A stretch of 64,000 nt of DNA, taken from the IMG/VR virus record IMGVR_UViG_3300022921_000002, positions 62,001 through 126,000 of that record; one strand, written 5' to 3'. Position numbers and translations under genes: made by a program. Shown here one piece after another: positions 16,857-46,186 of the stretch. Position 1 is the first letter of the stretch. The number at the start of each line of letters is the position of its first letter. This DNA comes from a virus. A model generated the notes under the pieces. That model worked only from the letters and a program-made list of their open reading frames with translations. It had not been told where the DNA came from and did no database searches.

Positions 16857-17479
16857 ATCATCTCCATATCATTTTCAGCTCGATGGATTGCCTGCAAACG
16901 CATAACATCCGCAAGAATATCCCATGAGCTATCGTGTTCTTTAAAATTATTTTCCCACACTTCTGTACTATTGATTGGACAAAAACCATTGATCTTTGGG
17001 AAATCCAATTTTGCATCAATATAAGTACGTGTATCTCGTATTCTCCAAAACTTTAGGTATTCTTCCATGTGTAGAAGTTTGTTTTGTGATTTAAACAAAC
17101 GACCTAGAATAATAGGATCAAACGTATTTGATCTTGACCACCAATATGTAATGTTTGGTTGGCTAATCAAATAATCCATAAACTCTGAACAGAACATTTC
17201 AACAGTTAAATCATTGGGTGTTGGTTTGATATGCCTACGCACCTCAGGACCTAGTGACTCCCACCAATTAACTGTTGATGCATCAACTTCATATCCATAC
17301 TTTTTAACCTGATTAACAACATCAAGTTTAAACCGTTTTGCTTTTACAACATCGTTGAAGTTGTATGGCTCATCAAGAAACTTATCCCAATTGAATACCA
17401 TAACCGAACAGTCGATTACAGCACATTTATTAGCATCCTTTCCGAATGTTTCGAAGTCAATTATAAGATCGTTTCTCAC
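16853..17479 (-). CDS. dexA: 3'-5' exonuclease DexA (DnaQ-like)
   Basis: A 208-residue DEDD exonuclease. LIIDFETFGKDANKCAVID (motif ExoI DFET), DASTVNWWESLGPEVRRHIK, SNTFDPIIL (ExoII region) and HDSSWDILADVM (ExoIII) match T4 DexA, including the STIEWWK...SPEARK motif. T4 DexA removes 3' ends and affects recombination/host DNA turnover. Flanked by overlapping genes on both sides (4 bases each). Confidence 0.85.
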   Translation of the reverse strand: MRNDLIIDFETFGKDANKCAVIDCSVMVFNWDKFLDEPYNFNDVVKAKRFKLDVVNQVKKYGYEVDASTVNWWESLGPEVRRHIKPTPNDLTVEMFCSEFMDYLISQPNITYWWSRSNTFDPIILGRLFKSQNKLLHMEEYLKFWRIRDTRTYIDAKLDFPKINGFCPINSTEVWENNFKEHDSSWDILADVMRLQAIHRAENDMEMI

Positions 17480-21775: not shown

Positions 21776-22409
21776 AATTTAATCTCCACTCGTCGTATTC
21801 ATCTTCAAGGTTAACCCATTGTGGTTTACATAGACCTGACCAACTATGTCTCTTGTCCCAAACAAACCACGCATATGCAATCATACCACCAATCTGATGT
21901 TTCTTTTCAATCGGCTCAATAGAATCCTTTTTGAATTGAACTCGGTCCGATAAAAATATTATATCACTAGGAGGGTGGTTTGTAAACAACTTTTTTCGTT
22001 TTTTTCCTTCTAAAAAGGTTAAACGTAGAAACATTGCTACATAATCATATTCACCTATCCATTTTTCCGCCATCTTTCGTGGTAAGTCTTTATGATATGG
22101 TGGGTTTGTCACTACTCCATCAAAACCTGTTGGCTTTTGCAATTCCATTGCGTCATAAGAAGTATTTATGCTACATAAAGAATCGGAATATTCATTGAGA
22201 TCATAACTTAAAACATTGTGACCATTCCGCGCAAGCTCAACCGAAATGTTACCACGACCTGCGCATGGTTCAACTATATCTCTTGGTGGTTTACAATACT
22301 TTGTGAGAACGAATGTTGCAAGTGGAGGTGTTGGGTAAAAATCATTCGTTCTTCGGTTAGGGTCATCTTTCTTGACCCCAACATAGACATCGGTTAAACT
22401 ATTAGCCAA
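21729..22409 (-). CDS. N6-adenine (or N4-cytosine) DNA methyltransferase-like
   Basis: A 226-residue class I methyltransferase: SAM-binding EPCAGRGNISVELA at 47-60, catalytic VTNPPYH at 100-106 (NPPY). The N-terminus has NRRTNDFYPTPP, a pattern seen in phage and plasmid methyltransferases and antirestriction genes. It probably methylates DNA or a nucleotide base. Overlaps the upstream dCMP deaminase by 8 bases and the downstream gene by 47. Confidence 0.75.
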   Translation of the reverse strand: MANSLTDVYVGVKKDDPNRRTNDFYPTPPLATFVLTKYCKPPRDIVEPCAGRGNISVELARNGHNVLSYDLNEYSDSLCSINTSYDAMELQKPTGFDGVVTNPPYHKDLPRKMAEKWIGEYDYVAMFLRLTFLEGKKRKKLFTNHPPSDIIFLSDRVQFKKDSIEPIEKKHQIGGMIAYAWFVWDKRHSWSGLCKPQWVNLEDEYDEWRLNYDKCSDTSGRRSNTP

Positions 22410-22905
22410 GGTGTGTTACCAAAATACCTGCCTCTTTAAACATAGGCGCAGATTGCGTGGTCCATAAGTCAACCCATTTCTCGGGTGTGTTGTATGTTGC
22501 TTCGCGGATTACAACTCGGCGAATACCGGATTGAATAATAAGTTTAGTACAGTCAGGACACACTGGCAATCCGTGGACATATATTGTTGCATTCTTTAAT
22601 GAAACACCAGAATACAAAGCATTCATCAAAGCATTAGTTTCCGCATGGACAATCCGTGGGTATTTTTCATCTCGGTTTTCTAAACGCTCAATACTATCTT
22701 CAATACCTTTTGGAAAACCATTATAACCAGTAGCAAGAATACGTCGTTCGTCATTTACACAAACAGCACCAATCTGACTCGACGGATCTTTACTCCATTT
22801 AGAAATTGTTTCAGCCAATTCCATAAATCGCTTATCCCATTTGAGTTGACGTTCATCTTCCTCACGGTATTTTCGACTTATAAATCTATCATATGGTTCT
22901 TGCAT
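22402..22905 (-). CDS. cd: dCMP deaminase
   Basis: A 167-residue zinc deaminase: HAETNALMNAL (H87, E89) and PVCPDCTKLII (C116, C119) make the catalytic zinc site, and the first half has GYNGFPKGIED. Converts dCMP to dUMP, balancing pyrimidine pools in a phage that also carries dUTPase and dCMP hydroxymethylase. Overlaps fabF by one base at 22905. Confidence 0.92.
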   Translation of the reverse strand: MQEPYDRFISRKYREEDERQLKWDKRFMELAETISKWSKDPSSQIGAVCVNDERRILATGYNGFPKGIEDSIERLENRDEKYPRIVHAETNALMNALYSGVSLKNATIYVHGLPVCPDCTKLIIQSGIRRVVIREATYNTPEKWVDLWTTQSAPMFKEAGILVTHLG

Positions 22906-24140
22906 TACATACCTCGAATAGCAATAGTTGAATTTAAACCACCAAACGCAAAGTTATTACTGATTGCAACATCAACCTTCTTTTCCTTTGCGGTATTTGG
23001 TACGACGTCAAGATCACATTCAGGATCAGGTTCTTCATAATTAATTGTTGGTGCAATAATGCCATCGTTTACTGCCATAATTGCCGCAAGTAATTCAACT
23101 GCACCTGTTCCGCCAATACAATGTCCGTGCATAGATTTGGTTGAACTTACACTCAATTTATGAGCATGGTCACCGAATGTTTGTTTGATAGCATCAATTT
23201 CAGTTCTATCATTTGGAACTGTGCCTGTACCATGAGCATTTATATAATCAACTTGTTCTGGGTTAATTGATGCATCTTTGAGGCATTTTTTCATTGATCT
23301 AATCAATCCTGAAACTTCAGGCATCACAAGATCACTTGAGTCTGCAGTACACGCCGCACCTAATACTTCACAGATGATATTTGCACCACGATTTTTAGCA
23401 TGCCAATATTCTTCAAAGACAAATACACCTGCGCCTTCACCGTGAACAATACCTTGACGCCCAAGAGAAAACGGTCGACAGTAACCTGGGCTTACAACGC
23501 GCAAACCTTCCCATGCTTTCATTCCTGATAGATTTAGAATTGCTTCTGAACCACCTGTCAGCATAACAGGAGCCATACCGTATTTAACCATATGGAATGC
23601 TTGTGTCATTGCGTGGTTAGCAGAAGCACATCCTGACGTTACAGTAAATGATGGACCTTTGATATTATGTTCCATTGAGATATGGCAAACAGGAGCATTA
23701 CCCATAACACGTGGAATAATAAAAGGATTAGCACGGCGTTTTGGATTATCAGATGCAAAGTAATTATGATATGTCCGTTCCCAGGTTTCAGCGCCACCAC
23801 TACCGTTACCCATAATAATACCTGCTTCCTCAGCAAGTTCACCATCAAATTCTAAACCTGATTGTTCTACTGCCTCGCGGGCTGCAAGTATATTGAGTTG
23901 TGTAAACCTATCAAAGATTGCAATTTGCATTCTTGTCCAATGGTCTTTTTCATCATAGCCTTTAATTTGGCCACCACGAGTGTAGCGCATATTTTGAATT
24001 TCTATGATGTTTTGGAGTTCGCTAATGCCGTCGGTGCCTTCGGCCATTGCTTTCATTGTATCTTGGGCAGTCCATCCTAAAGAATTTATAGTGCCCATGC
24101 CTGTAATAACAACACGGTTAGTCTGTCTTGTTGAGCTCAT
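22905..24140 (-). CDS. fabF: Beta-ketoacyl-ACP synthase II (FabF/KAS II)
   Basis: A full-length (about 411 residue) thiolase-fold condensing enzyme that extends acyl-ACP with malonyl-ACP. The Cys-His-His triad is intact: nucleophile in TVTSGCASANHAM (about C171), NAHGTGTVPNDRTE (about H303) and STKSMHGHCIGGTGAVE (about H338 with the preceding Lys); the C-terminal NNFAFGGLNSTI loop is also present. Fatty-acid synthesis genes are very unusual in phages. It overlaps dCMP deaminase by one base and the 67-residue gene by 23 bases, so it is a resident part of the early operon. It could reshape host lipids or supply acyl chains; no ACP gene is seen. Confidence 0.93.
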   Translation of the reverse strand: MSSTRQTNRVVITGMGTINSLGWTAQDTMKAMAEGTDGISELQNIIEIQNMRYTRGGQIKGYDEKDHWTRMQIAIFDRFTQLNILAAREAVEQSGLEFDGELAEEAGIIMGNGSGGAETWERTYHNYFASDNPKRRANPFIIPRVMGNAPVCHISMEHNIKGPSFTVTSGCASANHAMTQAFHMVKYGMAPVMLTGGSEAILNLSGMKAWEGLRVVSPGYCRPFSLGRQGIVHGEGAGVFVFEEYWHAKNRGANIICEVLGAACTADSSDLVMPEVSGLIRSMKKCLKDASINPEQVDYINAHGTGTVPNDRTEIDAIKQTFGDHAHKLSVSSTKSMHGHCIGGTGAVELLAAIMAVNDGIIAPTINYEEPDPECDLDVVPNTAKEKKVDVAISNNFAFGGLNSTIAIRGM

Positions 24141-24321
24141 CAATTAATGTTTTCCTTTTTTCACTACCCATTGCTCCATCAAAAAGTGATTTGGCAGAAG
24201 TCATAAGACAACTGCCGAGCATTAGGATTTCTTCATTATCATCACACATCATAATAAGCCGATCTAATTCAGAATTAAAATAAGTCATTCTTTTTACAAC
24301 GTGGCGTGCGGAATGTGGCAT
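24118..24321 (-). CDS. Small helical protein, unknown
   Basis: A 67-residue helical protein (with a CDDNEEILMLGSCLM segment) between the WYL_2-like gene and fabF. It overlaps fabF by 23 bases and its start overlaps the upstream stop by one base. It has no recognised domain; co-translation with fabF may hint at an accessory role. Confidence 0.5.
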   Translation of the reverse strand: MPHSARHVVKRMTYFNSELDRLIMMCDDNEEILMLGSCLMTSAKSLFDGAMGSEKRKTLIDELNKTD

Positions 24322-24818: not shown

Positions 24819-25517
24819 TTATACAACAAGATCAAAATGACGTTCGTATACGTGCAAGTTCATCACTTGCCATGTCAGCATGCCTTTTTCAATAGTAAAG
24901 TGTTTATTACCAGGAAGCTCACAACGGCTGTTCCATCGAGTAACAAGTTGATCCATTAGGTATTGAGCCCATGCGTAATCATTCTTGTAACCAAATACAA
25001 CATCATTAGAACGCATTTGCGATACCATATGTAGAATACCATCACGGATATAGAATGTTTGAGCGTTGGTACAAATGAAATCAGACTTACCGTTTTCATC
25101 AAACTCAACCCAGATAGATGGACGATTGTAAACCATTTGAGCACGACGGCTGTCAGGATTACGCCACAGTTCATCAAAAGCATTTTCAAATTGATTGAAA
25201 TACTTTGGTGAATTTACAAGGTGACCGTAGTTTGAATTGATTTCACCGTTTGGATCAGCAGCATATTGCCATGCCGCAGGTGGTTCTTTAGATGGTCCGT
25301 AAATATCATTAATATTTGTTGAACCTGATTTGTACCATTCCAATTCTGATTCAATATAACTTTGACTTGGTTTACCAAAGATTGCTGGTTCAGTTGCAAG
25401 AAAGTTTGCACCGATTAATTCAATAGTACGTTGGCCTGTTTTATCAATAGTGAATGCTTCATCTTTAAGCTCACCTTTGAAAAACTCACGGATATCATAT
25501 ACGCTATCAATTCTCAT
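24819..25517 (-). CDS. gp42: dCMP hydroxymethylase gp42
   Basis: A 232-residue thymidylate-synthase-fold enzyme with clear identity to T4 gp42: KTGQRTIELIGANFLATEP, GEINSNYG, PDSRRAQMVYNRPS, DFICTNAQTFYIRDG (catalytic C149) and MRSNDVVFGYKNDYAWAQYL. D180 (in KND) replaces the thymidylate-synthase Asn and fixes dCMP specificity. Makes 5-hydroxymethyl-dCMP from dCMP and methylene-THF, so this phage probably has hydroxymethylated, possibly glycosylated, cytosine. It overlaps the nuclease-like gene by 4 bases. Confidence 0.95.
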   Translation of the reverse strand: MRIDSVYDIREFFKGELKDEAFTIDKTGQRTIELIGANFLATEPAIFGKPSQSYIESELEWYKSGSTNINDIYGPSKEPPAAWQYAADPNGEINSNYGHLVNSPKYFNQFENAFDELWRNPDSRRAQMVYNRPSIWVEFDENGKSDFICTNAQTFYIRDGILHMVSQMRSNDVVFGYKNDYAWAQYLMDQLVTRWNSRCELPGNKHFTIEKGMLTWQVMNLHVYERHFDLVV

Positions 25518-28292: not shown

Positions 28293-28394
28293 ATGAAACT
28301 AAAGTATAGAATCAAGTTCTTTATGTCTAAATTAAAGTTTTGGAAAAAAGGAAGTTACGGTAAAGGTACGTTCATCTACGAAGATGATGATTAG
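28293..28394 (+). CDS. Small charged peptide (33 aa)
   Basis: ATG 28293 preceded by an excellent SD (GGAGGAG, 5-base spacing). Product is basic at first (MKLKYRIKFFMSKLKFWKKG) then acidic (YEDDD). Lies alone on the plus strand between two minus operons and overlaps the sulfotransferase 3' end by 23 bases. An AATAAATA at 28269-28276 could be a weak late box. Confidence 0.5.
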   Translation: MKLKYRIKFFMSKLKFWKKGSYGKGTFIYEDDD

Positions 28395-28986
28395 GTTCAT
28401 AATTAAATGTTTTGATATCTCTTTCATACCAATCTCCTATATCATTTATAAGCTTAGGAGTCCAAAGATTAGGGTAATCGCCTGTGACATTATACTTTTC
28501 TTGTAGTTCAACGCTGAAATAGTTTTTTACATCTTTCTTTAAAGTCTCAGTTTTCATCACATGGCACATTATTTTCCCATCATCGTTAGTAATGTGGTCT
28601 AATTGATTATGCCAATGAAGATGTGGTCTGTGCCATGTGAACGGCATTTCTATAAGTCTGTGCCTATCTTCAATAAATGCCTCAAAGCTTGAAAGATCAG
28701 TACCATGAACCTCATAATCTCTTGTCTTTGCATGCCAATAGCGAGAAGCTGTTCTCTGCCATGGATTTCTTACAACAGCAAATGCTTCAAACTTATCTCT
28801 ATATTCTGGGTAAAGGTCTTTCCATCTACTATGCTCAGCTCCTGGATATCCAATAACTTTTAAGCCCTGAATATAATCATAGTCTTTTAATTTATCTACA
28901 GTGTTAATGATAATTTGAGACTTTAGTGCGTTGCAATATCTTATAGAGAACCCACCTGTCTTTGGAATATGAATAAAAATTTTCAT
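28372..28986 (-). CDS. Sulfotransferase
   Basis: A 204-residue cytosolic-type sulfotransferase: IHIPKTGGFSIR at the start is the PAPS 5'-phosphosulfate loop, and VVRNPWQRTASRYW the 3'-phosphate-binding segment, plus the catalytic-site HRPHLHWH region. Likely transfers sulfate to a sugar or protein made by the upstream operon enzymes. It is the last gene of the fibre/modification operon and overlaps the GNAT gene by 4 bases. Confidence 0.85.
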   Translation of the reverse strand: MKIFIHIPKTGGFSIRYCNALKSQIIINTVDKLKDYDYIQGLKVIGYPGAEHSRWKDLYPEYRDKFEAFAVVRNPWQRTASRYWHAKTRDYEVHGTDLSSFEAFIEDRHRLIEMPFTWHRPHLHWHNQLDHITNDDGKIMCHVMKTETLKKDVKNYFSVELQEKYNVTGDYPNLWTPKLINDIGDWYERDIKTFNYEPNHHLRR

Positions 28987-29438
28987 AATCTATATACTGC
29001 GTATGCATTTTCTCCGTGTTTAAATGTCATCCACTCAGTCATACGAATGAACCCAAACTCTTCAGCATGAGAAAATGTAGGCCTACGAGGTAAACACCAT
29101 AAAAACTCACAACCTTCTCTTCTTCCTTGGTCTGCCACAGCTTGCCACATTATTTGAGATAACTTTTGTCTTCTATAATCTTCATCTACCCACACTCCAC
29201 GTCCTCTATAATAAGTTTCTGAAGTCTTGTGTCCTGAGTTTGAAGCTATAAGTTTATCTCCGTCATACAAGCCCCAGTAGGTGGCTTTATATTTTGTAAA
29301 TATTTCTTTATTGTTTCCAAGTTCAGGAAAAGTCATATCAGAAATATAATAGTGCTCATTCCCAGGCCACAACTTGTCCCAGGCTTCTTTAATCTGTTCT
29401 TTGGTTATTTCTCTAAGCTGATAATTCTGCATAGTCAT
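28983..29438 (-). CDS. GNAT-family acetyltransferase
   Basis: A 151-residue GNAT fold: VWVDEDYRRQKLSQIMWQAV is the acetyl-CoA-binding motif A (R/Q-x-x-G/K-L), followed by EFLWCLPRRPTFSHAEEFGF. Would acetylate an amine on a sugar or residue. Overlaps the 2OG gene by 26 bases and the sulfotransferase gene by 4. Confidence 0.75.
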   Translation of the reverse strand: MTMQNYQLREITKEQIKEAWDKLWPGNEHYYISDMTFPELGNNKEIFTKYKATYWGLYDGDKLIASNSGHKTSETYYRGRGVWVDEDYRRQKLSQIMWQAVADQGRREGCEFLWCLPRRPTFSHAEEFGFIRMTEWMTFKHGENAYAVYRL

Positions 29439-29961
29439 TCAGTACATTTACTACAAGGTGTATTCTATCTTCTTTACTTGAATTGAAGGCAGTGTGCTTT
29501 AACATAGTATTGGTTAAATACCACGTGTCTTGTTTGAGATGCATAATCTCATCATCTATAACCATAAAGCATCCTTCCTGTGTTTTTACAGGATAGTGTA
29601 TTCTTATTTGAGAATCAGTATGCCATGATAAACAAGTAAACGGTAAAGATTTCATTAATCTGACTCTACCGATTTTATATCTTTCATTCAACATATTATA
29701 AACAGTTTCAAGTACGGTGCCACGGAACACTGAGCACACGGTGTTGAAATCTTGTTCCTTGAGTTCTGTTTCTCGCAATGGTACTATAGTCTGACCATTT
29801 TTATAAACCTTTTTTGACCAATCATATTTCAAACTACCACATGCCATCTTTGTGTTATCAGGTGCATCCGATGTAGTTGTAATACCGATCTGTGTTTGAC
29901 CATCCCATTCAATATGATCTAATGTAAATGGCGGTAATTCTAATTCAGTAAAATTTTTCAT
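29413..29961 (-). CDS. AspH-like 2OG-Fe(II) hydroxylase
   Basis: A 182-residue protein of the aspartyl/asparaginyl beta-hydroxylase type. CLSWHTDSQIRIHYPVKTQE carries the iron-binding HxD, DTWYLTNTMLKHTAFNSS the distal His and 2OG-binding Arg (RIHLV). Hydroxylates an amino-acid or other acceptor using 2-oxoglutarate. Its place in an operon with radical-SAM and sugar enzymes suggests it modifies the same product. Confidence 0.8.
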   Translation of the reverse strand: MKNFTELELPPFTLDHIEWDGQTQIGITTTSDAPDNTKMACGSLKYDWSKKVYKNGQTIVPLRETELKEQDFNTVCSVFRGTVLETVYNMLNERYKIGRVRLMKSLPFTCLSWHTDSQIRIHYPVKTQEGCFMVIDDEIMHLKQDTWYLTNTMLKHTAFNSSKEDRIHLVVNVLNDYAELSA

Positions 29962-30650
29962 GGTTCAATCACAAGAAAAGGATATTCTAATTCGTGTACG
30001 ATTTGAATAGTACCACCAAGATGGCCTAATACGAACGGTGGTCTATACATTGTCAAAAATGTTTGGCATGGAGTATTATTTGCTTGTATCTGATCTCGTA
30101 TCAATACATTGTTATCGGTAAGATAAGCTATGTTTGTATCGGTCTCATTCTCTAAGTTACGTATATCAATACTTGACCCATCTCTTTCAACACGTGCCTT
30201 ATAAAACCTATCAAGTAATTTTGTACTATTCGTTCCGATAAGACTGATGATGATTTTCTTATAGGTAAATGTTTCTTTCATCCACCGAACGGTTTGTTTG
30301 AACTCATTAAAATCTGTATGGGTAAATACACTAAACGCAAAAATAATATCTTGCTTTGTATTGATATTGGGAAACGGTTCGTCGAGATTACCAGTCTGAT
30401 TATAAACTTTATTATATTTGTTATAGTGAAAAAAGTTAGCATCAGGATAATTTTTTGCACCAACATCCAATGCACCTTTATCAACATCAACACAAGTATA
30501 GTTACTTTGTTTGATTGGAAAATTATCAAACGATAATAGGTTACCTTGATTGCCACCCCAATCTAAAAATGTTGTTGTACTTGATAAATCATCAACCTCT
30601 AAAAGGCTGTTAAGACTGATTACCGATTTTTCTACCGGGTATAAATCCAT
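29958..30650 (-). CDS. SAM-dependent methyltransferase
   Basis: A 230-residue class I methyltransferase with TFLDWGGNQGNLLSFDNF (motif I), TCVDVDKGALDVG (acidic motif II) and DIIFAFSVFTHTD (motif IV region). Acceptor unknown. Overlaps the PP-loop gene by 41 bases and the 2OG gene by 4. Confidence 0.75.
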   Translation of the reverse strand: MDLYPVEKSVISLNSLLEVDDLSSTTTFLDWGGNQGNLLSFDNFPIKQSNYTCVDVDKGALDVGAKNYPDANFFHYNKYNKVYNQTGNLDEPFPNINTKQDIIFAFSVFTHTDFNEFKQTVRWMKETFTYKKIIISLIGTNSTKLLDRFYKARVERDGSSIDIRNLENETDTNIAYLTDNNVLIRDQIQANNTPCQTFLTMYRPPFVLGHLGGTIQIVHELEYPFLVIEP

Positions 30651-31344
30651 AATCCCAATCTCCCCATATTAATTTGCGTTCACCACAAGACCAACATACA
30701 CCACACGGTTTTTCTGTGTCAGGTATATTAGTACAGCATGACCTCGTTTCCTGCAACAAATCAAATAAATCAAATCTCCTGTAGATTGACGCAACAAACC
30801 TTTTATCAACATTTGCAAATGGAGAATAGTATGGATATCCAAATCTATCAATTGTAATAGGAATATCGTTTTCATTCCGTATACCAATCATTGGATCACA
30901 TTCTTTCCAAAGATTAATATGCGTACCATCTTTTAATTCAATGTCAACATCAAATCGAGGGTTAGCTGTATTACCGCCAATAAGCATATCATACTCACCA
31001 CGGCCAAACACTTCTTTTTGATATTTATGTAGGTGAGAGTCGTTATAATCATCACCGTAGACTGTATGGTGAGACAAGATGTTGTGGTAATCAAACTTGC
31101 TAATCATATATTCAATGATGTTGGCAGACCTTCGTGCCTGCCATCTATACCGCTTGTCAAAGGCTAGAGTAAGGCATCCAATCGTTGTATCGTGTCGGTT
31201 ATTTTCCGTTAAGTATTTGATTAGTAAATAAAAAACCAATGCCGAATCAGCACCACCGCTTAAATTAAAAAGTATTCTTTTACATTCTAACGGTATTTCA
31301 AAGCTTATAGATTGACCAAACTCATCCTCAAGATACATCATCAA
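30610..31344 (-). CDS. PP-loop ATPase, QueC-like
   Basis: A 244-residue adenine nucleotide alpha hydrolase-fold protein. ILFNLSGGADSALVFYLL contains the SGGxDS PP-loop (residues 29-34), and the C-terminal SCCTNIPDTEKPCGVCWSCG is a zinc-site arrangement like the CGxCxxC of QueC. QueC makes preQ0 from carboxydeazaguanine; no other queuosine-pathway gene is visible, so an amide- or thio-forming reaction on another substrate is equally possible. Overlaps SGNH and methyltransferase genes. Confidence 0.75.
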   Translation of the reverse strand: MMMYLEDEFGQSISFEIPLECKRILFNLSGGADSALVFYLLIKYLTENNRHDTTIGCLTLAFDKRYRWQARRSANIIEYMISKFDYHNILSHHTVYGDDYNDSHLHKYQKEVFGRGEYDMLIGGNTANPRFDVDIELKDGTHINLWKECDPMIGIRNENDIPITIDRFGYPYYSPFANVDKRFVASIYRRFDLFDLLQETRSCCTNIPDTEKPCGVCWSCGERKLIWGDWDYGFIPGRKIGNQS

Positions 31345-32161
31345 TCCACTTGTTTATCGCTGCACCGAGGTTTATTTGTCCTTTTGCATCAGGATGAGAG
31401 TCAAGTTCTGAAATTTTACTTTCTGCTGATATCCATTTACCACCAATCTCTTTCCATACAGGCCAACCATATACTTCAACAGGTTTGATCTTTTCAACTT
31501 TTGCAAATGCCTCGCCTGAGATTAATTCGTTTAAAATTGCCTTAGTTAAAAAACAATTCTCAACTCTTTCATCAATCATTAAGTTAAAAACTTTCCATTC
31601 CTTGGGGTGCTTTTGTCTAAAGTTATCGAGGTACCACCACCAGTAATCGGATGTAAACGGCCATATTGGGACATCAGATTGAAATATATTTAATTTAATA
31701 TTAAGTTTACGGCATAACATAATTACCTTCTCAATATAAAACAACGTGTTTTCTAATATAGGTATAGGTCCGTCGAGTGCTAATGGCAATGTATGTAAAC
31801 CCATTAAGTATTCAGCGCTTGAGTTATCTTTTCTGAATTTCTTTTCAGAATTAGATTCCATTGCAAACACCTCCCACCTTTTACAAGGCATTATTCTGCG
31901 CCTACCTAATTGCAATCTTGACCAATCGGTAAGTTGCCAACAAATGTGTGATGGAGGATCATCTGATAATACCGCGTCCATTATTTCAATATAAGCATAC
32001 TCATTTGAACTACCAGATCTACCTTTATTAACGGCAGGCAATCCCAAATGCTTTCCAACATATTCTGGCCATTTCGGCCATGAGCAATCAAGTTCTTCAT
32101 GCTGAAAAGAAAAGTAATTGTGGTCAGTCCAACTACATCCTACTGCAAGCAAATAACTCAT
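31328..32161 (-). CDS. SGNH/GDSL-like hydrolase
   Basis: A 277-residue protein with AVGCSWTDHNYF (block I, Ser), VNKGRSGSSNEYAYI (block II Gly/Asn) and DSHPDAKGQINLG (block V Asp-His). Such enzymes act as sugar O-acetyl esterases or acyltransferases in polysaccharide clusters. Overlaps the PP-loop gene by 17 bases and the double glycosyltransferase by 1. Confidence 0.7.
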   Translation of the reverse strand: MSYLLAVGCSWTDHNYFSFQHEELDCSWPKWPEYVGKHLGLPAVNKGRSGSSNEYAYIEIMDAVLSDDPPSHICWQLTDWSRLQLGRRRIMPCKRWEVFAMESNSEKKFRKDNSSAEYLMGLHTLPLALDGPIPILENTLFYIEKVIMLCRKLNIKLNIFQSDVPIWPFTSDYWWWYLDNFRQKHPKEWKVFNLMIDERVENCFLTKAILNELISGEAFAKVEKIKPVEVYGWPVWKEIGGKWISAESKISELDSHPDAKGQINLGAAINKWIDDVS

Positions 32162-33870
32162 TACATTATCAACCCAAAGTTTTTAGAAATAAAGTGTATG
32201 AATTGAAGTTCTTTAAACTTTATGTTTGTTTCTAACTCATGCTTTCTTTGTTTAAAATGGCGGTTGGTTGGATCATAGGCAGCCAGCTTAGTAGTATCGT
32301 GTTTGAAATGCCATTTCTCTTGTAGGCGCATTACAGGTACATTATTGATCTTAGTCTTATATGACATTATAGTTTCATTATCGTGTCCAAATGATCTACG
32401 GATCTCCTCAGTATACATTGAGAATTCCTTAACCTCATCCATTAAATCTAACAATTCATCAATGCCACCAAAATAATCAAGTTGTTCCATAATCTTTCGG
32501 CTTGACATCATAATCCCAGTATTGAATACCCAATTGTCACCATCAAGATCTTCCTCTGCCAACAATGCGTGCGCATTCCAATACTTTGCTTGGGGATTAC
32601 GGAAATCTTTATTATAATTTTTGAAATATAATGGATCTCTTACATTAACTCCTGCTTCATACGCGGTGTTTACATCACAACAAAATCCTTGTTCTGCTCT
32701 CAAATAATTAAACGCATCAAACTTATCAGCAAAATATACATCGTAATCAATATACAAAACTAAATCATAATCGTGAGTTAATTTATCAAGTAACCAAACT
32801 TTATATAGATTAATAATATTGTATTCTGTTAGTTGTGGAAATCTTGCCGCAAATGTTTCGTATTGCTCATCACGCCCAAACTGAATAAATTCTGCACCGC
32901 ATAGATCTGCATAATCTCGGTGGTTTTTATCTAACTTATCTTTAAATTCTGCAAGCCGTTGTTTAACACGGAGACTTTTCGGAACATCATCATCGGATGG
33001 ACCACGAGGATTGTCAAGACGTTCGTCAGGTATTTCAATATAAATTGAATAGATACATTTAGTTTTATCGTTAAAGAAATGATTGAACTTTTTATTAATA
33101 AAATGAGCAACCTTAATCTCATCCCAATCAACAGTTATAAGATCATCGGATACAATGTAATGCCATTCTCTATCCATCAAAACATACGGGATATTGAATT
33201 CTTCCATAATCCATGAAAACAATGATTCGTTGTTTGGATAATAATACATTCTCAAATAAGTACTATTAACACCCATAAGATTATCGTGCTTTATTTGATT
33301 AATCTTTTTTATGCCTTTTTTAATTCTTGCGATATACTTGATCTTTTTGATGTGTTCAGACTTGCCAACCATAATACCTGTATTCATCACATGGCAATCA
33401 AACTTATCATTAAGTAGATCTCTTGTGATATGGTATTTTAATGTTGGGTTACGCACGCCAATTTCTTGAAAGACAACTTCATTAATGTTTCTATTCAATA
33501 TCTTTTCATCTTGATCTTTAATATGAATGCCTTTACTCAAATCCAATTCATCAAACATATTCTCATCGGTATTGAATACCACATCCATATCAATATACAT
33601 TACTTCATCATATTCTTCAGCAAGTTTGGCAAATAAGTGATGTTTATATAAGTTAACCTTTGTAAACTCAACGTCGTGCTCGACAACAAAGTCTTTCATT
33701 GTGTTATGGAATAATTTAAATTCTACACCAATTTTATCGGCATAATCTTTTTTGTTGTCAATCAGTTTATCCCAATAATCTTTTTGCTGTTCGTGTGACC
33801 AATGATTAACATTCCATGCATCATCTTCACGACTAATATCATCCCAAACTGTAAATATAATTCGTTTCAT
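32161..33870 (-). CDS. Tandem (two-domain) glycosyltransferase
   Basis: A 569-residue protein made of two similar halves. Each has a GT-A-type strand ending in an Asp cluster: EYDEVMYIDMDVVFN in the first half and DYDLVLYIDYDVYFADKFDA in the second, plus a matching MNTGIMVGK / FNTGIMMSS region. This implies an internal duplication of a GT8-like unit, with one domain perhaps specialised. The start at ATG 33870 (MKRIIFTVWDDIS...) is preferred over one 60 bases upstream. Overlaps the methyltransferase by 4 bases. Confidence 0.7.
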   Translation of the reverse strand: MKRIIFTVWDDISREDDAWNVNHWSHEQQKDYWDKLIDNKKDYADKIGVEFKLFHNTMKDFVVEHDVEFTKVNLYKHHLFAKLAEEYDEVMYIDMDVVFNTDENMFDELDLSKGIHIKDQDEKILNRNINEVVFQEIGVRNPTLKYHITRDLLNDKFDCHVMNTGIMVGKSEHIKKIKYIARIKKGIKKINQIKHDNLMGVNSTYLRMYYYPNNESLFSWIMEEFNIPYVLMDREWHYIVSDDLITVDWDEIKVAHFINKKFNHFFNDKTKCIYSIYIEIPDERLDNPRGPSDDDVPKSLRVKQRLAEFKDKLDKNHRDYADLCGAEFIQFGRDEQYETFAARFPQLTEYNIINLYKVWLLDKLTHDYDLVLYIDYDVYFADKFDAFNYLRAEQGFCCDVNTAYEAGVNVRDPLYFKNYNKDFRNPQAKYWNAHALLAEEDLDGDNWVFNTGIMMSSRKIMEQLDYFGGIDELLDLMDEVKEFSMYTEEIRRSFGHDNETIMSYKTKINNVPVMRLQEKWHFKHDTTKLAAYDPTNRHFKQRKHELETNIKFKELQFIHFISKNFGLIM

Positions 33871-34538
33871 ATACCAATCACCATATATCTTTGATATTGA
33901 GCATTCTCCGGTGTAGTAAATCCTGACCAAAATACTCTTGTTAAACCCAATGATTTTTCAAATTCTTCAATACTGTTATGAGTATTAATGTGCTCAGCTT
34001 CATTATGAAAGTTATTACTTTGAAAGCATACAATGCAATTTGGTTTCTTAAGGCGGATAATCATTTCAATATCCTCCTGTTCCATATGCTCACAACTTGT
34101 ATTAATAATGAGTTGAAAATTTTCTGCGCGTTCAATAAAATAATCTATTGCATCATCATGCTTCCAATGAATATTTTGGCAATGCTCAATATCTTTGTGT
34201 AGCATAGGACCGTATATTTCACATTGGTAATCTGAATCAACATTCCATACCGCAACATCATTATCGAGATGTTCTTTCATTAATAATCCGGCAATACCAT
34301 ACCATGCACCCATAACTAAAACGTGCTCAATCGGCCCGTCTCGTAGAAAGGTTTCATCGTTTACAAATTCTTTGAGGTTTTCAACCAGCCATTGCTTACT
34401 TGTTGTTTGGCTAGGATTAACGGCAGTCATAATATCGAGTGAACGGTATAAATCTACATTAGGATTATACTTTGACTCAACATATATTTCTTCAATTATT
34501 TTAAGAGCATTTTTATAAAGTGTTTCTAGGTAATTCAT
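33867..34538 (-). CDS. SAM methyltransferase-like protein
   Basis: A 223-residue protein with a Rossmann motif (HVLVMGAWYGIAGLLM), VWNVDSDYQC (acidic loop) and LIINTSCEHM (motif IV). Probably methylates a sugar or a protein residue together with the neighbouring glycosyltransferases. Overlaps both neighbours (4 and 26 bases). Confidence 0.65.
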   Translation of the reverse strand: MNYLETLYKNALKIIEEIYVESKYNPNVDLYRSLDIMTAVNPSQTTSKQWLVENLKEFVNDETFLRDGPIEHVLVMGAWYGIAGLLMKEHLDNDVAVWNVDSDYQCEIYGPMLHKDIEHCQNIHWKHDDAIDYFIERAENFQLIINTSCEHMEQEDIEMIIRLKKPNCIVCFQSNNFHNEAEHINTHNSIEEFEKSLGLTRVFWSGFTTPENAQYQRYMVIGI

Positions 34539-35121
34539 ATTTCATTCCATTATACATATCAATTGGTGCAGTGCCATTATAAGGATTGGCAATTGAGTTT
34601 ACTAATCCGTGTTCAAACGTATTAAATTCAATACCTTCATGGACAAGAAAACGATCTATACCTGCGTACTTTCTCATAAAGTAATCTTTATTTGACATAA
34701 AGTGATCCCAGATATGATTCTGTTCACCAGCAGTCCATGTGATTACTGAACTATTTATGTGAACATCATAAGCATGAGGTGCCATGTATAAATCGTCTTT
34801 CCAATAATCTTTAATGATTGTTAACCCATCCCAATTCAACCATGGGCGCGGATCAGCTTTAATATCCATGTCTAAATCAAAGAATAAACATTTACCTCTG
34901 ACTGGAAAATCTTTACTAAACATTGCAAGTTTATTCCACCAAAATCTAAGTGATGGTTTTTTGAAACATGGAATACACTCAATCTCAACATTCAACGGAT
35001 TATCAGTATAGCACAAGTATTGAGAATTAGGATAGTATTCTCGTAGCTGATCTCTCAATCTGTTAACGTGTTCAGGGTCGTACTTGTCACCATGTTTCAC
35101 AAATATAATATTATCGGTCAT
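34513..35121 (-). CDS. GT-A-like glycosyltransferase (small)
   Basis: A roughly 200-residue protein (MTDNIIFVKHGDKYDPEHVN...) with CLFFDLDMDIKADPRPWLNW, a DxD-type metal site, and SLRFWWNKLAMF before it. Resembles short GT8/GT25-type transferases. An upstream start at 35130 is possible. Overlaps the radical-SAM gene by 11-20 bases. Confidence 0.65.
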   Translation of the reverse strand: MTDNIIFVKHGDKYDPEHVNRLRDQLREYYPNSQYLCYTDNPLNVEIECIPCFKKPSLRFWWNKLAMFSKDFPVRGKCLFFDLDMDIKADPRPWLNWDGLTIIKDYWKDDLYMAPHAYDVHINSSVITWTAGEQNHIWDHFMSNKDYFMRKYAGIDRFLVHEGIEFNTFEHGLVNSIANPYNGTAPIDMYNGMKYELPRNTL

Positions 35122-36211
35122 TAATTGCATTCCTCAATAAGTTCATAATTTTTGTAACTGCATTCCTGCTATTACGGTTAGACAGGTTTAATATTTTTAG
35201 TCTATTCATTATATCTTCTAATACATCTTTTGATAACAAATTAATATTCCAATTTTCAGTATGCTGCCGTCCTGCTCTATCATATGCATTTATAAACGCG
35301 CCAAAACCATTCCACTCCGCATATTTAAAAAACAAATCAATATTTTCGGCATTGACTTTCATAAGAGTTGAATTAACTTTAATGTTTTCAGGACCTAATA
35401 CATCTTTAAACTTTTGAATGTTATCCATTGTTTCATTATACTTACCGCCAATTCTAATCATATCATATTCCGATTCAACAACAGTATCTAATGAAACTGA
35501 AAGACTAATGTTGTTTTCTTGGCACATCCTTAAAACTTTTTTATTAAATACACTACCGTTAGTACAGATTTGTACTCTCATCTCAGGATTAATGTCGGCA
35601 ATCAACGCACAAAGTTTATATAATGCTTTATGAGAAAACGGTTCTCCACCAACAAATCTTATCTCTTTTAGGTGTGGAATAAACTCGACAAACTGTTCAA
35701 GCAATTGTTCTAGGTTTTCATCATTATCAAACACGTTTGGATCATATTGTTTAAGATCTTTATCGCGTCCTAACATATGTTTTGATGATAATTCGCCAAA
35801 GCACATTGGGCACGCCATATTACACAGATTACTAATTTCAAATTCAAAAACTCTAGGCCATGAGTTAGCATCCATTGCGTGTTCTAATCTATCTCTGCCA
35901 ACATTATAATCATATTCAATAATAGGTGGTGTTTCACCTTTATCAATTCTTTTTTGACAAGCAGCCTGACAACCTGCACTTAATTTATTCTCAAGGAAGT
36001 CATCTTTATAAGTGTTGTTTAATTCACCAAACCAATAATCTTTTAAACCAAACTGATCTTTTTTCCATATTTTCATTTTACGGCTAAAGCAGCAAGGATG
36101 CATCCCGCCGTTTCTTCTTATTCGCATATGATTAAATGCGGCATAGCATGAGATAATTTTATGTTCTTCGGGTATAGTTCGTTTACTTTGAAATAAATCC
36201 CACTTATTCAT
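35111..36211 (-). CDS. Radical SAM protein (SPASM/twitch type)
   Basis: A 366-residue radical-SAM enzyme: SNLCNMACPMCFGELS holds the CxxxCxxC cluster (C130, C134, C137), RFVGGEPFSH is the GGEP motif, and VQICTNGSVF is typical of the core strand. N-terminal cysteines (HPCCFSR, GCQAACQ) could bind an extra Fe-S cluster. Enzymes of this type modify peptides or sugars. Overlaps the other radical-SAM gene by 8 bases. Confidence 0.88.
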   Translation of the reverse strand: MNKWDLFQSKRTIPEEHKIISCYAAFNHMRIRRNGGMHPCCFSRKMKIWKKDQFGLKDYWFGELNNTYKDDFLENKLSAGCQAACQKRIDKGETPPIIEYDYNVGRDRLEHAMDANSWPRVFEFEISNLCNMACPMCFGELSSKHMLGRDKDLKQYDPNVFDNDENLEQLLEQFVEFIPHLKEIRFVGGEPFSHKALYKLCALIADINPEMRVQICTNGSVFNKKVLRMCQENNISLSVSLDTVVESEYDMIRIGGKYNETMDNIQKFKDVLGPENIKVNSTLMKVNAENIDLFFKYAEWNGFGAFINAYDRAGRQHTENWNINLLSKDVLEDIMNRLKILNLSNRNSRNAVTKIMNLLRNAINDR

Positions 36212-37415
36212 TATCTTTGTATTCCTTCAAATATGGAGCCAAATCCCATATGTCTTCATTATTTTCACGTGCCACTAAACAAAAGTCAATCCATTCAACC
36301 ATTCTTTCTTGTATCTCTGCCTTTTCGCCATTCCATTCTTCTTCTTGTGGTACAACACTTAATACGTTATTAGTATTACTCAAATCAAGTTTTGGGTTTC
36401 GCCAATAAAATTTATCGACTTGTTCAAATTTAGAATTAAGATATTCAAATAGTTTATCAATACCTTCTTTTTGGTGATGATCCTCTAACCAAACAGGTGA
36501 ACAATATTTTGGAAATGTAACAAGGTTTGCCATACTTACACGAGGCACACCAGGTACATCAATAAAGTAATCAATCAATTCTGGTAAGTGCATCCAATTA
36601 TAAATTGAGACCGTTGCAACAACTATTACGATGCGTCCTTCGACAGCGTGGTACCGATTGATATTATTTATTGTGCGTTCAAAGTTACCGCCACGGATCC
36701 AATCATATGTTTCGTGTACTCCATCAATACTTGCTTGAATGTGTACTTCTTCAATCTGATGTAAAATATCAATAACAGTATTAGTAACCAATTGAAAGTT
36801 AGTACAAATCTCAACACGGCATTTAGGATTTGTTTCCGCAACCTTTTTCAATATTTTTATATTGTTTGGGTCAGCAAATGGTTCACCACCTTTAATGGTT
36901 AGGTGCTGTAAATGTGGAACAAGATCAAGTACCTTATCAACATCGGCGTCAGTCATCTTATACATATCAGTGTGGAATTTATGATTTTGGTTTCGCCAAT
37001 CTAAACCAGACTCCACCGCCATTTTTTCATATGGTGCCCACTTTGACGAATACTTACCTGAACAGGTTACGCACATTTGGTTACAGATATTACTTGTTGT
37101 AAGCTCAAGAAACCTTATTGGTGTTACCTCAGCGGCAACGTCTTCTTCATATGTTGGAAATTTAAAACGGTTGTAAGTATCAAACCGAGCAAGGCGCCCT
37201 GCATCCCAATGGCGCCAACAGACATCACATTGAGGCGGGAATTTCTTTTCTTTAAAATCTGCACGGATTTGGTTGTATATATCACCGTTAAAGAACTCAG
37301 TTAAATCAGGAACATCTTTAATATGTGATACCGCAGTGTTATCACCGGCACAGCATAAGACAATTTCTCCAATAGGATTGATTGTCAATCCAGTTTCAGG
37401 TACCATACATTTCAT
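36204..37415 (-). CDS. Radical SAM protein (SPASM/twitch type)
   Basis: A 403-residue radical-SAM enzyme: SNICNQMCVTCSGKYS (C111, C115, C118), LTIKGGEPFAD, and VEICTNFQLV core strand. N-terminal CCAG and CDVCW pairs suggest an auxiliary cluster. It is paralogous in layout to the 366-residue gene that follows. It is the first enzyme gene after the fibre-like genes (5-base gap), so the pair probably acts on a fibre- or glycan-linked substrate. Confidence 0.88.
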   Translation of the reverse strand: MKCMVPETGLTINPIGEIVLCCAGDNTAVSHIKDVPDLTEFFNGDIYNQIRADFKEKKFPPQCDVCWRHWDAGRLARFDTYNRFKFPTYEEDVAAEVTPIRFLELTTSNICNQMCVTCSGKYSSKWAPYEKMAVESGLDWRNQNHKFHTDMYKMTDADVDKVLDLVPHLQHLTIKGGEPFADPNNIKILKKVAETNPKCRVEICTNFQLVTNTVIDILHQIEEVHIQASIDGVHETYDWIRGGNFERTINNINRYHAVEGRIVIVVATVSIYNWMHLPELIDYFIDVPGVPRVSMANLVTFPKYCSPVWLEDHHQKEGIDKLFEYLNSKFEQVDKFYWRNPKLDLSNTNNVLSVVPQEEEWNGEKAEIQERMVEWIDFCLVARENNEDIWDLAPYLKEYKDNE

Positions 37416-37420
37416 AATAA

Positions 37421-37990
37421 TTAATCCAATACTGTGTTGATAATAGAGATTGCCTCAGTAATTTTAGTTGAGCGTCGGATTTTAGATTTGATTTCTTTTG
37501 GTGCCTTTTTAATTATATCTTGTTCTAATGACCATAGTTTAAATTTAAATACTGCTTCTTTATTAGTATTGTTATCAAGGATATATTCAAACGCAACATT
37601 ATCAACCTTATTCGTTTTCATTTTAAATGCTTGGTCCAACGTTGTCAAGTCATCTTTTGTTTTCTCAAGGTCCACACGTTTTGTATGTAGATCTTTAAGT
37701 ACACGTGCCTTTTCTTTTTCAAGTTCTTCAATACCAAGGATCTCCCTTGCCCTCATATTAACACGTGTATTGAACTCACGAGAATAACGACGTTTAAATT
37801 CTACCGTGTCATCAAGAATTGATTCTTCATCCCATCCTTCTTCAATCAATGCTTTATAATCTGCGCTATCGGGATTGTTTTCAATAACGTGAGCAACTTT
37901 AGTGTCGCCATCCTCGAATATAATCTCAATTGTATTATAACCTTCATCTATATAATGTGCTTCAATTACCTTACCACTAAACACTGACAT
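37421..37990 (-). CDS. Fibre-operon protein, paralogue of upstream gene
   Basis: An approximately 189-residue protein (MSVFSGKVIEAHYIDEGYNT...) paralogous to the 169-residue gene just upstream: same N-terminal strand pattern, EEGWDEESILDD matching EEGWTKDRLLDS, and ILDNNTNKEAVFKFKLWSLE matching MDNNTSKEEIFKVKLWALE. It adds a coiled-coil insertion (LEKEKARVLKDLHTKR). Start at 37990 gives a 14-base overlap with the upstream gene. Structural or chaperone role in fibres is inferred. Confidence 0.6.
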   Translation of the reverse strand: MSVFSGKVIEAHYIDEGYNTIEIIFEDGDTKVAHVIENNPDSADYKALIEEGWDEESILDDTVEFKRRYSREFNTRVNMRAREILGIEELEKEKARVLKDLHTKRVDLEKTKDDLTTLDQAFKMKTNKVDNVAFEYILDNNTNKEAVFKFKLWSLEQDIIKKAPKEIKSKIRRSTKITEAISIINTVLD

Positions 37991-38486
37991 CTTCATCACC
38001 CTCATCAATAGCTTGTTGGATTATACCTAACGTGCTCAAAATTGTTTTACTTTTACGAATATCTCGTTTTAATTTTGAATCACTGTCTTTAATAAAAGGC
38101 AATTCCAACGCCCATAATTTAACTTTAAATATTTCTTCTTTACTTGTATTGTTATCCATAATAGCTTCATACTTATCAAGACCCATTGTTTTGAGTTTTT
38201 TCTCAGCCTTCATACTTTGACTAATAATTAAATGCTTTGCCTGGGCATTAACAAATGTTGCAAATTCTCTACTTGTTCTCTGTTTATATTCTGCAGTTGA
38301 ATCGAGGAGTCTATCTTTTGTCCATCCTTCTTCAACCAGATCAATATAATCAGGATTATCGGTATCATCTGCGGGAAGGTGGAATACGTGCTCTTTGCCA
38401 TCATCGTCAAGCCATTTGACAAAAATAGTATCGTAGTTGTTACTGATATAATACGCTGTAACTATGCGTTTGCTAAATACTGCCAT
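37977..38486 (-). CDS. Fibre-operon protein, paralogue of downstream gene
   Basis: A 169-residue protein (MAVFSKRIVTAYYISNNYDT...) that shares its whole layout with the following gene, without the coiled-coil insertion. Strand-rich N-terminus, helical C-terminus. Lies 15 bases downstream of the 347-residue fibre-like gene. Probably a virion or assembly factor; family not recognised. Confidence 0.6.
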   Translation of the reverse strand: MAVFSKRIVTAYYISNNYDTIFVKWLDDDGKEHVFHLPADDTDNPDYIDLVEEGWTKDRLLDSTAEYKQRTSREFATFVNAQAKHLIISQSMKAEKKLKTMGLDKYEAIMDNNTSKEEIFKVKLWALELPFIKDSDSKLKRDIRKSKTILSTLGIIQQAIDEGDEDVSV

Positions 38487-38501
38487 AATATATTCACTTT
38501 C

Positions 38502-39545
38502 TTATGATTTTACAATTCTTAAATAATATGTTTCTCTTGTTTGTGTTACACCGCTTGGAAATTCTTGAGTACGATAATCATCGGTATTGACAAATCTTGT
38601 TTGGTAACCGTCATCTGATTCACCTGATAGATATGTATCCGCCATACCCGTACCACGTTGCAGCCCATCACCTGTATATGTCGAGTCAGTGATTTCATAT
38701 GTGATCTTATAACCATCAACAGTACGAGCAACAAGGTTGATTTCATATGAAAGCATATCTTGGAATTCTTCCAACGTATATGTTTGCACTGATCCATCGG
38801 CGGCGGCGTAACATGGAATTTTTACACCAAATTCTGTCCCATCACTCGAGACATTAATTTCGCTAACGGCATTCTTTATGTATAGATAATAAGTGTTTAC
38901 AATAAAATAAATGTCACGGTCATAAAAAGGTTCGCCAATCTGATCTCCAGGTGTGACATCATAACCGCCAGTTATATCATATTTTGAATCTTGGAAAACT
39001 GAACGTGTTCCTACTTGAGTAAAACCAGATTCAGCACCTGTACCAATTTTATATGTGCCTTGCTGATTATCGCCAACAGCTTGGAATGCCATTTCGTTAA
39101 TCGTAGGATAAATGTATGTGTCACGGAAATCCTCACGAGACATAGAACGCAAATTAGCATCACTATCAACGTATAACGGATATCGGTGTGTTTCTTCTGA
39201 TATTGGATATGTTGGCTCAGTTATAGAATTAAATCTTTGTTTAATACCACGCCAAGGTGTTGTAACTAATTCAATGTCAGGTGTTTCCGCAGGAGTGTCA
39301 AAATTTGTTATGTCGGTGGTATCTTCGCCTGCTTTATAACGTGTATCCGTAATAGTACCAATAATATCAGGATCATTAGCAAACTGTGTAAACGGGTTTA
39401 ATACATATAACTCAACTGCGGGGTTTAGTGCATATTGCCGTGCTGCTTCACGTCGCCAAAACGATTGTTCTAGGGATGGTGATTCTCGAAACGATAACAC
39501 ACCGTTAGTGTCAACTGAAACATAGGCTGCTGTGCGTGCGGTCAT
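38502..39545 (-). CDS. Tail-fibre-like structural protein
   Basis: A 347-residue protein paralogous to the 331-residue gene at 39779. Both begin MTAR, contain RYKAGEDTTD / RRTAGAATEN, RSMSREDFRDTYIYPTINEM / RAMTKADFRDTFIIPTIDAL, and end with a TQEFPSGVTQTRETYYLRI-like strand (TQEFPVGSPTNLISYGLRI in the other). Beta-rich and charged with no catalytic motif, typical of T4-like marine fibre or whisker proteins. Coupled by TAATG to the 70-residue gene. Confidence 0.6.
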   Translation of the reverse strand: MTARTAAYVSVDTNGVLSFRESPSLEQSFWRREAARQYALNPAVELYVLNPFTQFANDPDIIGTITDTRYKAGEDTTDITNFDTPAETPDIELVTTPWRGIKQRFNSITEPTYPISEETHRYPLYVDSDANLRSMSREDFRDTYIYPTINEMAFQAVGDNQQGTYKIGTGAESGFTQVGTRSVFQDSKYDITGGYDVTPGDQIGEPFYDRDIYFIVNTYYLYIKNAVSEINVSSDGTEFGVKIPCYAAADGSVQTYTLEEFQDMLSYEINLVARTVDGYKITYEITDSTYTGDGLQRGTGMADTYLSGESDDGYQTRFVNTDDYRTQEFPSGVTQTRETYYLRIVKS

Positions 39546-39757
39546 TAATCATCACTTCCACAGTAAAATGTTTTAAGAACGGTACCGTCTGAAGCTTTAA
39601 CTTCAAACTTGTGATCCTTGGCAACCACACCAGAGTTAATTGTCGCGGTTGTAATTTTTTGGTTAATGATGGTAGACGTTCCTGCGTCAATATCGGCAAT
39701 GTTTTCTAAATGCCGAGTATCATCAATAACTATGCTAGTTCCTACTTTTAATGGCAT
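39545..39757 (-). CDS. Small fibre-associated protein (70 aa)
   Basis: A 70-residue protein: VGTSIVIDDTRHLENIADID, a common N-terminal motif of marine phage fibre proteins (G-T-x-V-I-D-D-x-R-x-L-x-N-I). Paralogue of the 61-residue gene at 40787 (VAGTEVIDNALQLKNVA). The RBS is AGGAGGCAAGG. Preceded by its own late promoter (39776-39783). Confidence 0.6.
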   Translation of the reverse strand: MPLKVGTSIVIDDTRHLENIADIDAGTSTIINQKITTATINSGVVAKDHKFEVKASDGTVLKTFYCGSDD

Positions 39758-39775
39758 CCTTGCCTCCTATGAATT

Positions 39776-39783
39776 TATTTATA
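39776..39783 (-). promoter_or_regulatory. T4-type late promoter (TATAAATA on minus strand)
   Basis: Exact late box 19 bases upstream of the 70-residue gene start, overlapping the stop region of the 331-residue gene. Gives the second fibre unit and the modification operon an internal late promoter. Confidence 0.75.
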
Positions 39784-46184: not shown

Positions 46185-46186
46185 AA

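Follow-up and report, generated by a model that had tools for sequence, protein, structure and literature searches.

The QueC-like gene and its surroundings

The window analysed here, a stretch of 64,000 nucleotides, belongs to a marine phage record of 221,447 bp (IMGVR_UViG_3300022921_000002) that is linear and possibly a fragment. By eye, the phage was judged T4-like; a PHROG tail protein, CsgG and curlin-repeat genes are present. At 30610..31341 on the minus strand (full ORF to 31344), the window encodes a PP-loop protein of the QueC superfamily with 243-244 residues, 244 if counted from TTG. The ORF opens at this TTG (31344), which is followed by two ATG codons, 31341 and 31338. One of these is more likely to be the start than TTG, since relatives such as L054 start at the equivalent position. 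Numbered from ATG 31341, the PP loop SGGADS occupies residues 28-33 and the C-terminal cysteine cluster is arranged as C202-x10-C213-GV-C216-WS-C219-G-ER, the last part of which reads CGVCWSCGER. We named the family to which the protein belongs the CWWC family.

With Pfam QueC (PF06508) the protein reaches 20.1 bits (E 5e-4), which is below the gathering score of 22, and with the NCBIfam QueC model TIGR00364 16.6 bits (cut-off 150.3). It also matches PHROG 1550, "QueC-like" (23.8 bits, E 3.3e-5); phmmer search against PDB gave no match at E≤10. Together with the matches of the AlphaFold2 model described below, the Pfam and PHROG scores place the likeness to QueC above chance. The original prediction of a SGGxDS loop and a QueC-like C-terminal cysteine cluster is thus borne out.

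Four other viral contigs (L001-L004) carry copies at least 98.8% identical to the window protein. Compared with L001 and L002 there are no codon differences, the DNA being identical; with L003 there are one synonymous and one nonsynonymous difference, with L004 16 synonymous and three nonsynonymous ones. Codon differences among these near-identical copies suggest purifying selection. A degenerate pseudogene was considered and rejected, as the frame is open, PP loop and cysteines are intact and synonymous differences from L004 outnumber nonsynonymous ones. No match was found in 50,697 phage records by tblastn, either with the window protein (E≤0.01) or with its relatives L054 and L073 (E≤1e-3).

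The gene is part of a run of eleven minus-strand ORFs extending from 37415 down to 28372, with successive overlaps of 1 to 64 bases as measured from the listed ORF starts, some of which may lie too far upstream. Two radical SAM genes, both matching N-twitch models, begin the run 3.8 kb upstream of the QueC-like gene: 36204..37415 scores above cut-off with NF033640 (209.3 bits) and 35111..36211 under it (149.6 bits, cut-off 170), the latter also matching Pfam Radical_SAM (E 6e-19). They are followed by a glycosyltransferase gene (34513..35130; PHROG 1962, E 1.7e-12), by a gene for a 223-residue protein, methyltransferase-like by eye and without Pfam match (33867..34538), which has phmmer homologues in 22/86 family neighbourhoods, and by one for a 589-residue protein with two glycosyltransferase-like halves (32161..33930), in which DxD motifs were recognised by eye and no convincing Pfam match was found. 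The QueC-like gene is overlapped upstream by 31328..32161, whose product is SGNH-like by eye (GCSWTDH) and has no Pfam match, and downstream by a methyltransferase-like gene (29958..30650; Methyltransf_12, 29.1 bits, cut-off 30). The remaining genes encode an aspartyl/asparaginyl beta-hydroxylase (29413..29961; PF05118, E 1e-11) with phmmer homologues in 15/86 neighbourhoods, the near-identical L001 among them, a GNAT acetyltransferase (28983..29438; PF00583, E 2.9e-9) and a sulfotransferase (28372..28986; PF03567, 24.6 bits with a cut-off of 22; PHROG 3347, E 1.7e-8). In relatives, these operon neighbours are mostly not kept beside the gene. The run had been read as a fibre-modification operon. 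This was not supported as regards fibres: at 37421-40774, the putative tail genes and those enclosed by them encode four proteins without PHROG match at E≤0.001, so that a link to tail fibres can only be surmised.

Several other genes of the window deserve mention. NTP-transferase and epimerase genes are present outside the run. A curli-type secretion operon is found at 45372-48850; it encodes a curlin-repeat protein (PF07012) besides CsgG (PF03783, E 5.7e-50), and one protein within it (46187-46924) has no Pfam match. At 53420-55462, a CHASE2 sensor is fused to an adenylate/guanylate cyclase domain, and this protein might alter cyclic-nucleotide signalling of the host. A beta-ketoacyl synthase gene, for which PHROG gave nothing at E≤0.001, is located at 22905-24143 (Pfam E 5.8e-36). 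Members of the thymidylate-synthase family (24819-25517) and dCMP-deaminase family (22402-22905) and a C5-cytosine methylase (17476-18699) are also encoded. Since dCMP hydroxymethylases belong to the thymidylate-synthase family, cytosine modification is possible in DNA of this phage.

The CWWC family and its departure from canonical QueC

To sample the family, a DNA pattern for CGxCWxCxER was used in viral contigs. In the resulting stretches (at least 120) and the first loci together, the cysteine pattern is preceded by SGGx[DE]S in at least 102 distinct ORFs; ORFs without PP loop were left out of this number as truncated or chance matches. Occurrence of the cysteine pattern in all members proves nothing, because it was the selection criterion. 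The signature of the family reads SGGxDS...GxTxNP...TRSCE...HCGxCWWCxERxWAFG. Among the matches listed, SGGxDS is found in 101/102 members (selected with SGGx[DE]S), GxTxNP in 73/102, T.[ST]C in 98/102 and P-x5-K in 100/102. An alignment (A1) was constructed from 65 members, picked by hand out of 86 under 80% identity. It reveals an invariant Lys180 and nearly invariant Arg155 and Tyr187. Judged from these sequences, the family is large, broad and phage-dominated.

The window copy shares 38% identity with L054 and with L018; in the phylogenetic tree it groups with L018, L054 and L061 (99/96). In place of the consensus CWWC and xWAF it has CWSC and KLIW, respectively, and its specificity may therefore differ. 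Many deeper forks of the tree are weak and bacterial members appear in two places; hence we claim no direction of transfer. In L018 (5374-6785), the PP-loop gene occurs in two tandem copies flanked by radical SAM genes. Near 22/86 PP-loop genes, a repeat-rich family was noticed, with units such as LRRAVIDxNLxSIFRL recognised by eye; its representative (L113 8795-9892) has no Pfam match.

No description of the CWWC family or of its pairing with radical SAM genes was found in the open-licence literature. A survey of PF06508, whose ten largest clusters comprise 98.5% of its set, gives in its available part cysteine signatures for seven of them; CWWC is not among these, and the survey leaves clusters 7, 8 and 10 unanalysed (PMC13329287). 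All 65 members of A1 match Pfam QueC and 47/65 match TIGR00364 at E≤0.01, so loose annotation could label them queC and wrongly infer preQ0 synthesis. One survey of viral AMGs, as far as its accessible text goes, lists queC among the most abundant genes and reads it as making preQ0 to protect DNA (PMC9301287).

The window protein resembles canonical QueC in the SGGxDS PP loop, P...K before the zinc site, a C..CxxCxxC cluster and a Rossmann-like fold. The predicted zinc site is a variant, C(x)10CxxCxxC instead of C(x)8CxxCxxC. In E. coli QueC, mutagenesis identified as essential Y35 (YxQxHxxE), R99 (VPxRN), Y131 (YPDC) and zinc-site Y189, according to the part of the source available (PMC13329287). 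The window protein lacks strict YxQxHxxE, VPxRN, YPDC and TxTCY, and among the matches listed the strict patterns Y.Q.H..E, VP.RN, Y.DC and T.[ST]CY occur in 0/102 members, while all are present in E. coli QueC. These patterns are harsh, as 2/4 QueC controls (Bdellovibrionia L267 and Gat-QueC of phage 9g) also miss some of them. Looser forms were therefore counted among the same listed matches: [YF]PD after the PP loop was detected in 2/102 members versus 4/4 controls, zinc-site [TW]x[STH]CY in 0/102 versus 4/4 and [YF]GQ in 0/102 versus 3/4. RN after the PP loop, found in 34/102 members and 4/4 controls, does not separate the family from QueC. Motif loss was judged by pattern and not on a solved active site. 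Lying below the Pfam cut-off and missing most of these motifs, the window protein is, on sequence grounds, not a canonical QueC.

No genes for preQ0 synthesis were found in the record either. Profiles of QueD, TGT and FolE gave 0 matches at E≤1 in its 221,447 bp; in 14 control genomes the same searches found them in 9, 14 and 11, respectively. Neither tblastn nor phmmer with phage 9g DpdA, FolE, QueD, Gat-QueC and radical enzyme detected anything at E≤1. The whole-record search for queD and dpdA/TGT proposed earlier thus yielded no match, and the full preQ0 pathway was not found in this possibly fragmentary record. The earlier statement that no FolE, QueD or QueE is near holds for FolE and QueD; as to QueE, it has to be qualified by the two upstream radical SAM genes, which match N-twitch models and are not necessarily QueE. 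TGT (PF01702) is detected at E≤0.001 in 0/49 family-bearing records. DpdA2-type proteins could escape this search and those in the record of the window: DpdA2 was not recovered by PSI-BLAST from 9g DpdA (PMC6884629, available in part). A QueD homologue is present in 8/49 family records; G010 and G016 have it at a distance of 4-6 kb from the PP-loop gene.

A comparable case is the singleton QueC-like protein of Mycobacterium phage Muddy, likewise QueC-like without preQ0 pathway. Proteins of this type were judged likely to form another subfamily of N-type ATP pyrophosphatases, in the accessible part of PMC6884629. We rejected the Muddy ORF as a member of the CWWC family, as it reaches 12.4 bits with the family profile and lacks the signature.

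An AlphaFold2 model of the window protein was built with alignment A1 (pLDDT 87.9, pTM 0.88). Comparison with PDB by VIA-align placed Cap9 (Z 13.6, 2.8 A over 160) and MesJ/TilS (13.2) in a tie for first, with FAD synthase and QueC (both 12.2) and LarE (about 10.6) behind. Cap9 was likewise ranked first by Foldseek (E 1.1e-5). The top-ranked PDB entry is a complex of Cap9, 20% identical over 160 aligned residues, and its modified partner. A predicted fold common with Cap9, TilS and QueC does not show what the protein does.

Linkage to N-twitch radical SAM genes

The strongest new fact is the pairing with radical SAM genes across the CWWC family. We analysed 49 family records (48 and that of the window), hand-picked among contigs 45 kb or longer; those with a cut-off ORF or no PP loop were excluded, except L122. 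N-twitch radical SAM genes (NF033640, E≤1e-10) are present in 48/49, in 47 above the curated cut-off. With seven near-duplicates removed, 41/42 records hold 290 copies, 69.6 per Mb. Control loci were retrieved with one DNA pattern from a gene resembling T4-type terminase by eye, and 50 of roughly 118 were searched. N-twitch genes occur in 18/50 of these loci and in 12/19 of the control records of at least 40 kb, the only ones compared, at 19.1 per Mb. The difference is significant for presence (Fisher p 7e-4) and density (Mann-Whitney 2.5e-5), with habitat not matched between the two sets. Such genes are thus common in these phages anyway, yet denser where the CWWC family is present. The family profile itself matched one control record, as a 42-column fragment (E 4.7e-6).

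Further, we examined distances between both types of genes. Among the radical SAM matches listed (150, together with the two window genes), 21/60 PP-loop genes lie no more than 200 bp from a radical SAM gene. With random placement, 6.6 fell that close on average and never more than 15 over 2000 runs; the null of uniform placement ignores that PP-loop and radical SAM genes both favour variable islands. The 60 were taken from 80 PP-loop matches: eight from near-duplicate records were dropped and 12 not entered, being near-duplicates, matches in records whose radical SAM matches fell outside the 150 listed, and one fragment. A variant with only three or four near-duplicates removed gave a similar result (22/63, again among the radical SAM matches listed). 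Both genes could merely share a variable island. Against this argues the distribution of the main radical SAM cluster, a label derived from single-linkage blastp clusters, around 86 PP-loop genes: it accounts for 37/166 genes at positions +/-1 versus 15/204 at +/-6 to 8.

In the clade of the window copy (L018, L054, L061), a radical SAM-like gene is found directly upstream of the PP-loop gene. L018 has an N-twitch gene (171.8 bits) directly downstream as well, and a similar gene is located there in L054. The record of the window is itself poor in such genes, with two copies, 9.0 per Mb (below control density), the nearest being 3.8 kb from the PP-loop gene. No N-twitch gene was detected in family record G041, and in G005 and G045 the nearest radical SAM gene among the matches listed is about 150 kb away. 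At the other extreme, G002 (L017), G007 (L038), G031 (L091) and G035 (L097) each carry 13-17 N-twitch genes in 64-108 kb. The original interpretation is partly supported; the main context that it missed is the linkage to radical SAM enzymes across a large phage family.

Radical SAM expansions of this kind have precedents, as far as the available parts of the sources tell. One T4-like marine genome has 12 such genes (PMC5332604). Host-recognition clusters of pelagimyophages, which are T4-like and have curli genes, contain glycosyltransferases, radical SAM cassettes and Asp/Asn beta-hydroxylase (PMC7029224). The window shares all of these features. It differs in its QueC-like gene, of which the accessible portion of that description makes no mention, and in the length of its record, 221 kb.

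The family also occurs in bacteria. In one phylum, 6 of 290 genomes carry it at E≤1e-8. These six genomes contain nine loci, of which seven have a radical SAM-cluster gene adjoining the PP-loop gene; in L282 (in L137) it is found farther along and in L287 there is none within the 3.6 kb examined. In a set of six bacterial loci, five have such a gene within about 5 kb and L138 has none. Another PF06508 match (E 3.4e-46 or better) is present in 6/6 bacterial genomes that carry a member, all of them metagenome bins; the family does not, then, replace QueC there. Some bacterial radical SAM neighbours are 57-69% identical to phage proteins, which suggests that genes were exchanged between phages and bacteria or that phage DNA was misbinned. 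In two Bdellovibrionia bins (L139 5058-6578, L142 11188-12702), a B12-binding-type radical SAM protein is 69% and 64% identical, respectively, to its phage counterpart next to the L038 gene, and several more radical SAM genes surround it. Neighbours in L137 include APS kinase and a PAPS-reductase-domain protein; the run in the window has a sulfotransferase. Membrane genes that look HTTM-like by eye lie beside some bacterial members, and two that were scanned have no fitting Pfam match.

Proposed function and rival readings

The data show that the protein belongs to the family, that most QueC motifs are lost, how the genes are ordered and that relatives have the gene linked to radical SAM genes. 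With moderate confidence, we favour a divergent ATP ligase of the QueC superfamily that acts in a radical SAM tailoring pathway and not in preQ0 synthesis. As an ATP pyrophosphatase the window protein is catalytically plausible from its sequence. Its PP loop would adenylate a carboxyl or amide oxygen of the substrate; AMP would then leave on attack by a nitrogen nucleophile (ammonia or amine), and an amide, amidine or similar group would be formed. As substrate we envisage an intermediate that the neighbouring radical SAM enzymes make or tailor further. Missing QueC motifs and the position beside these enzymes indicate that the group built is probably a different one. The run of radical SAM, glycosyltransferase, methyltransferase-like, beta-hydroxylase, acetyltransferase and sulfotransferase genes points to an end product that is probably a decorated glycan or modified protein and not a DNA base.

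The original prediction named an amide, nitrile or thio product in place of a deazaguanine. Its non-deazaguanine part is favoured, since neither preQ0 genes nor TGT were found in the record and most substrate motifs of QueC are missing; the products that it names are candidates. Compared with the families described in the available part of PMC13329287, the zinc-type cysteine spacing points to nitrogen rather than sulfur chemistry, which makes thio the least likely of the three. A sulfur-transferring enzyme like LarE, TtuA or ThiI is for the same reason highly improbable: the family profile does match ThiI (E 3.1e-6) and NcsA (1e-3) weakly and the LarE fold is comparable, but by eye the cysteine spacing is nearer to the zinc type of QueC than to the three-Cys [4Fe-4S] type, and no sulfur carrier or desulfurase match was obtained in the nine window neighbours scanned. 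We also think it very unlikely that the protein is a genuine, fast-evolving QueC that converts CDG supplied by the host to preQ0, for use in queuosine tRNA or in 7-deazaguanine DNA. Fold, PP loop and cysteine cluster would suit such an enzyme, as would the QueD homologues in some family records, the divergent forms of DpdA that escape searches and the QueC-level proteins that themselves miss strict motifs. It is opposed by the counts for the motifs with mutagenesis-essential residues and for the loose [YF]PD and CY forms, by the searches for QueD, FolE and TGT in the record and by the separate QueC-level match in 6/6 bacterial genomes that carry a member.

Two further readings concern other ligases. 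An enzyme like Cap9 or QatC, which would attach a nucleobase or another acid to proteins of virion or host at their N-terminus, appears doubtful. Cap9, the protein deazaguanylation enzyme of type IV CBASS, is likewise a small single-domain PP-loop protein with a cysteine cluster, and is the top structural match. As the accessible text of PMC13279940 has it, CDG is recognised in Cap9 and QueC by Tyr and Asp, whereas QatC of the qatABCD defence system, with Thr instead, has the QueC scaffold without this pair. NCBIfam QatC weakly matches 7/65 members, but PADLOC QatC matches just 2/65. The substrate motif Y.DC is missing as described, the cysteine pattern differs from that of QatC, and a length of 243-244 residues fits neither Cap9 (about 185) nor QatC (about 400, extended at both termini). 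In the nine neighbours scanned, no Pfam match to CD-NTase, QatA or QatD was found; for qatB no Pfam model exists, and some neighbours remain unmatched. Unlikely, if less so, is a sugar amidotransferase like WbpG, which would modify a glycan, itself built by surrounding genes, with an acetamidino or uronamide group. Enzymes of this N-sugar type belong to the PF06508 superfamily of PP-loop proteins (PMC13329287, in its available part), glycosyltransferase and sulfotransferase share the run, the NTP-transferase and epimerase lie elsewhere in the window, and pelagimyophage clusters contain both glycosyltransferases and radical SAM cassettes. On the contrary, the cysteine motif of their cluster, CxxC(x)6CxC, is absent from the window sequence when read directly, and it is radical SAM genes, not the glycan genes of the window, that are conserved beside the family.

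The favoured ATP ligase in a radical SAM pathway leads to a broader and tentative idea, which we regard as possible rather than probable. Marine-type T4-like phages and some Bdellovibrionia may share an undescribed pathway, in which banks of N-twitch radical SAM enzymes (one 66-kb record has as many as 17) act together with at least one CWWC ligase on a new substrate. It would be analogous to QueE feeding QueC, in that a radical SAM enzyme makes an acid and a PP-loop enzyme amidates it. If this is true, phages vary the product, which might be a surface glycan or a modified protein, within their host-recognition islands. The CWWC family is a candidate partner for the unexplained radical SAM expansions of marine phages.
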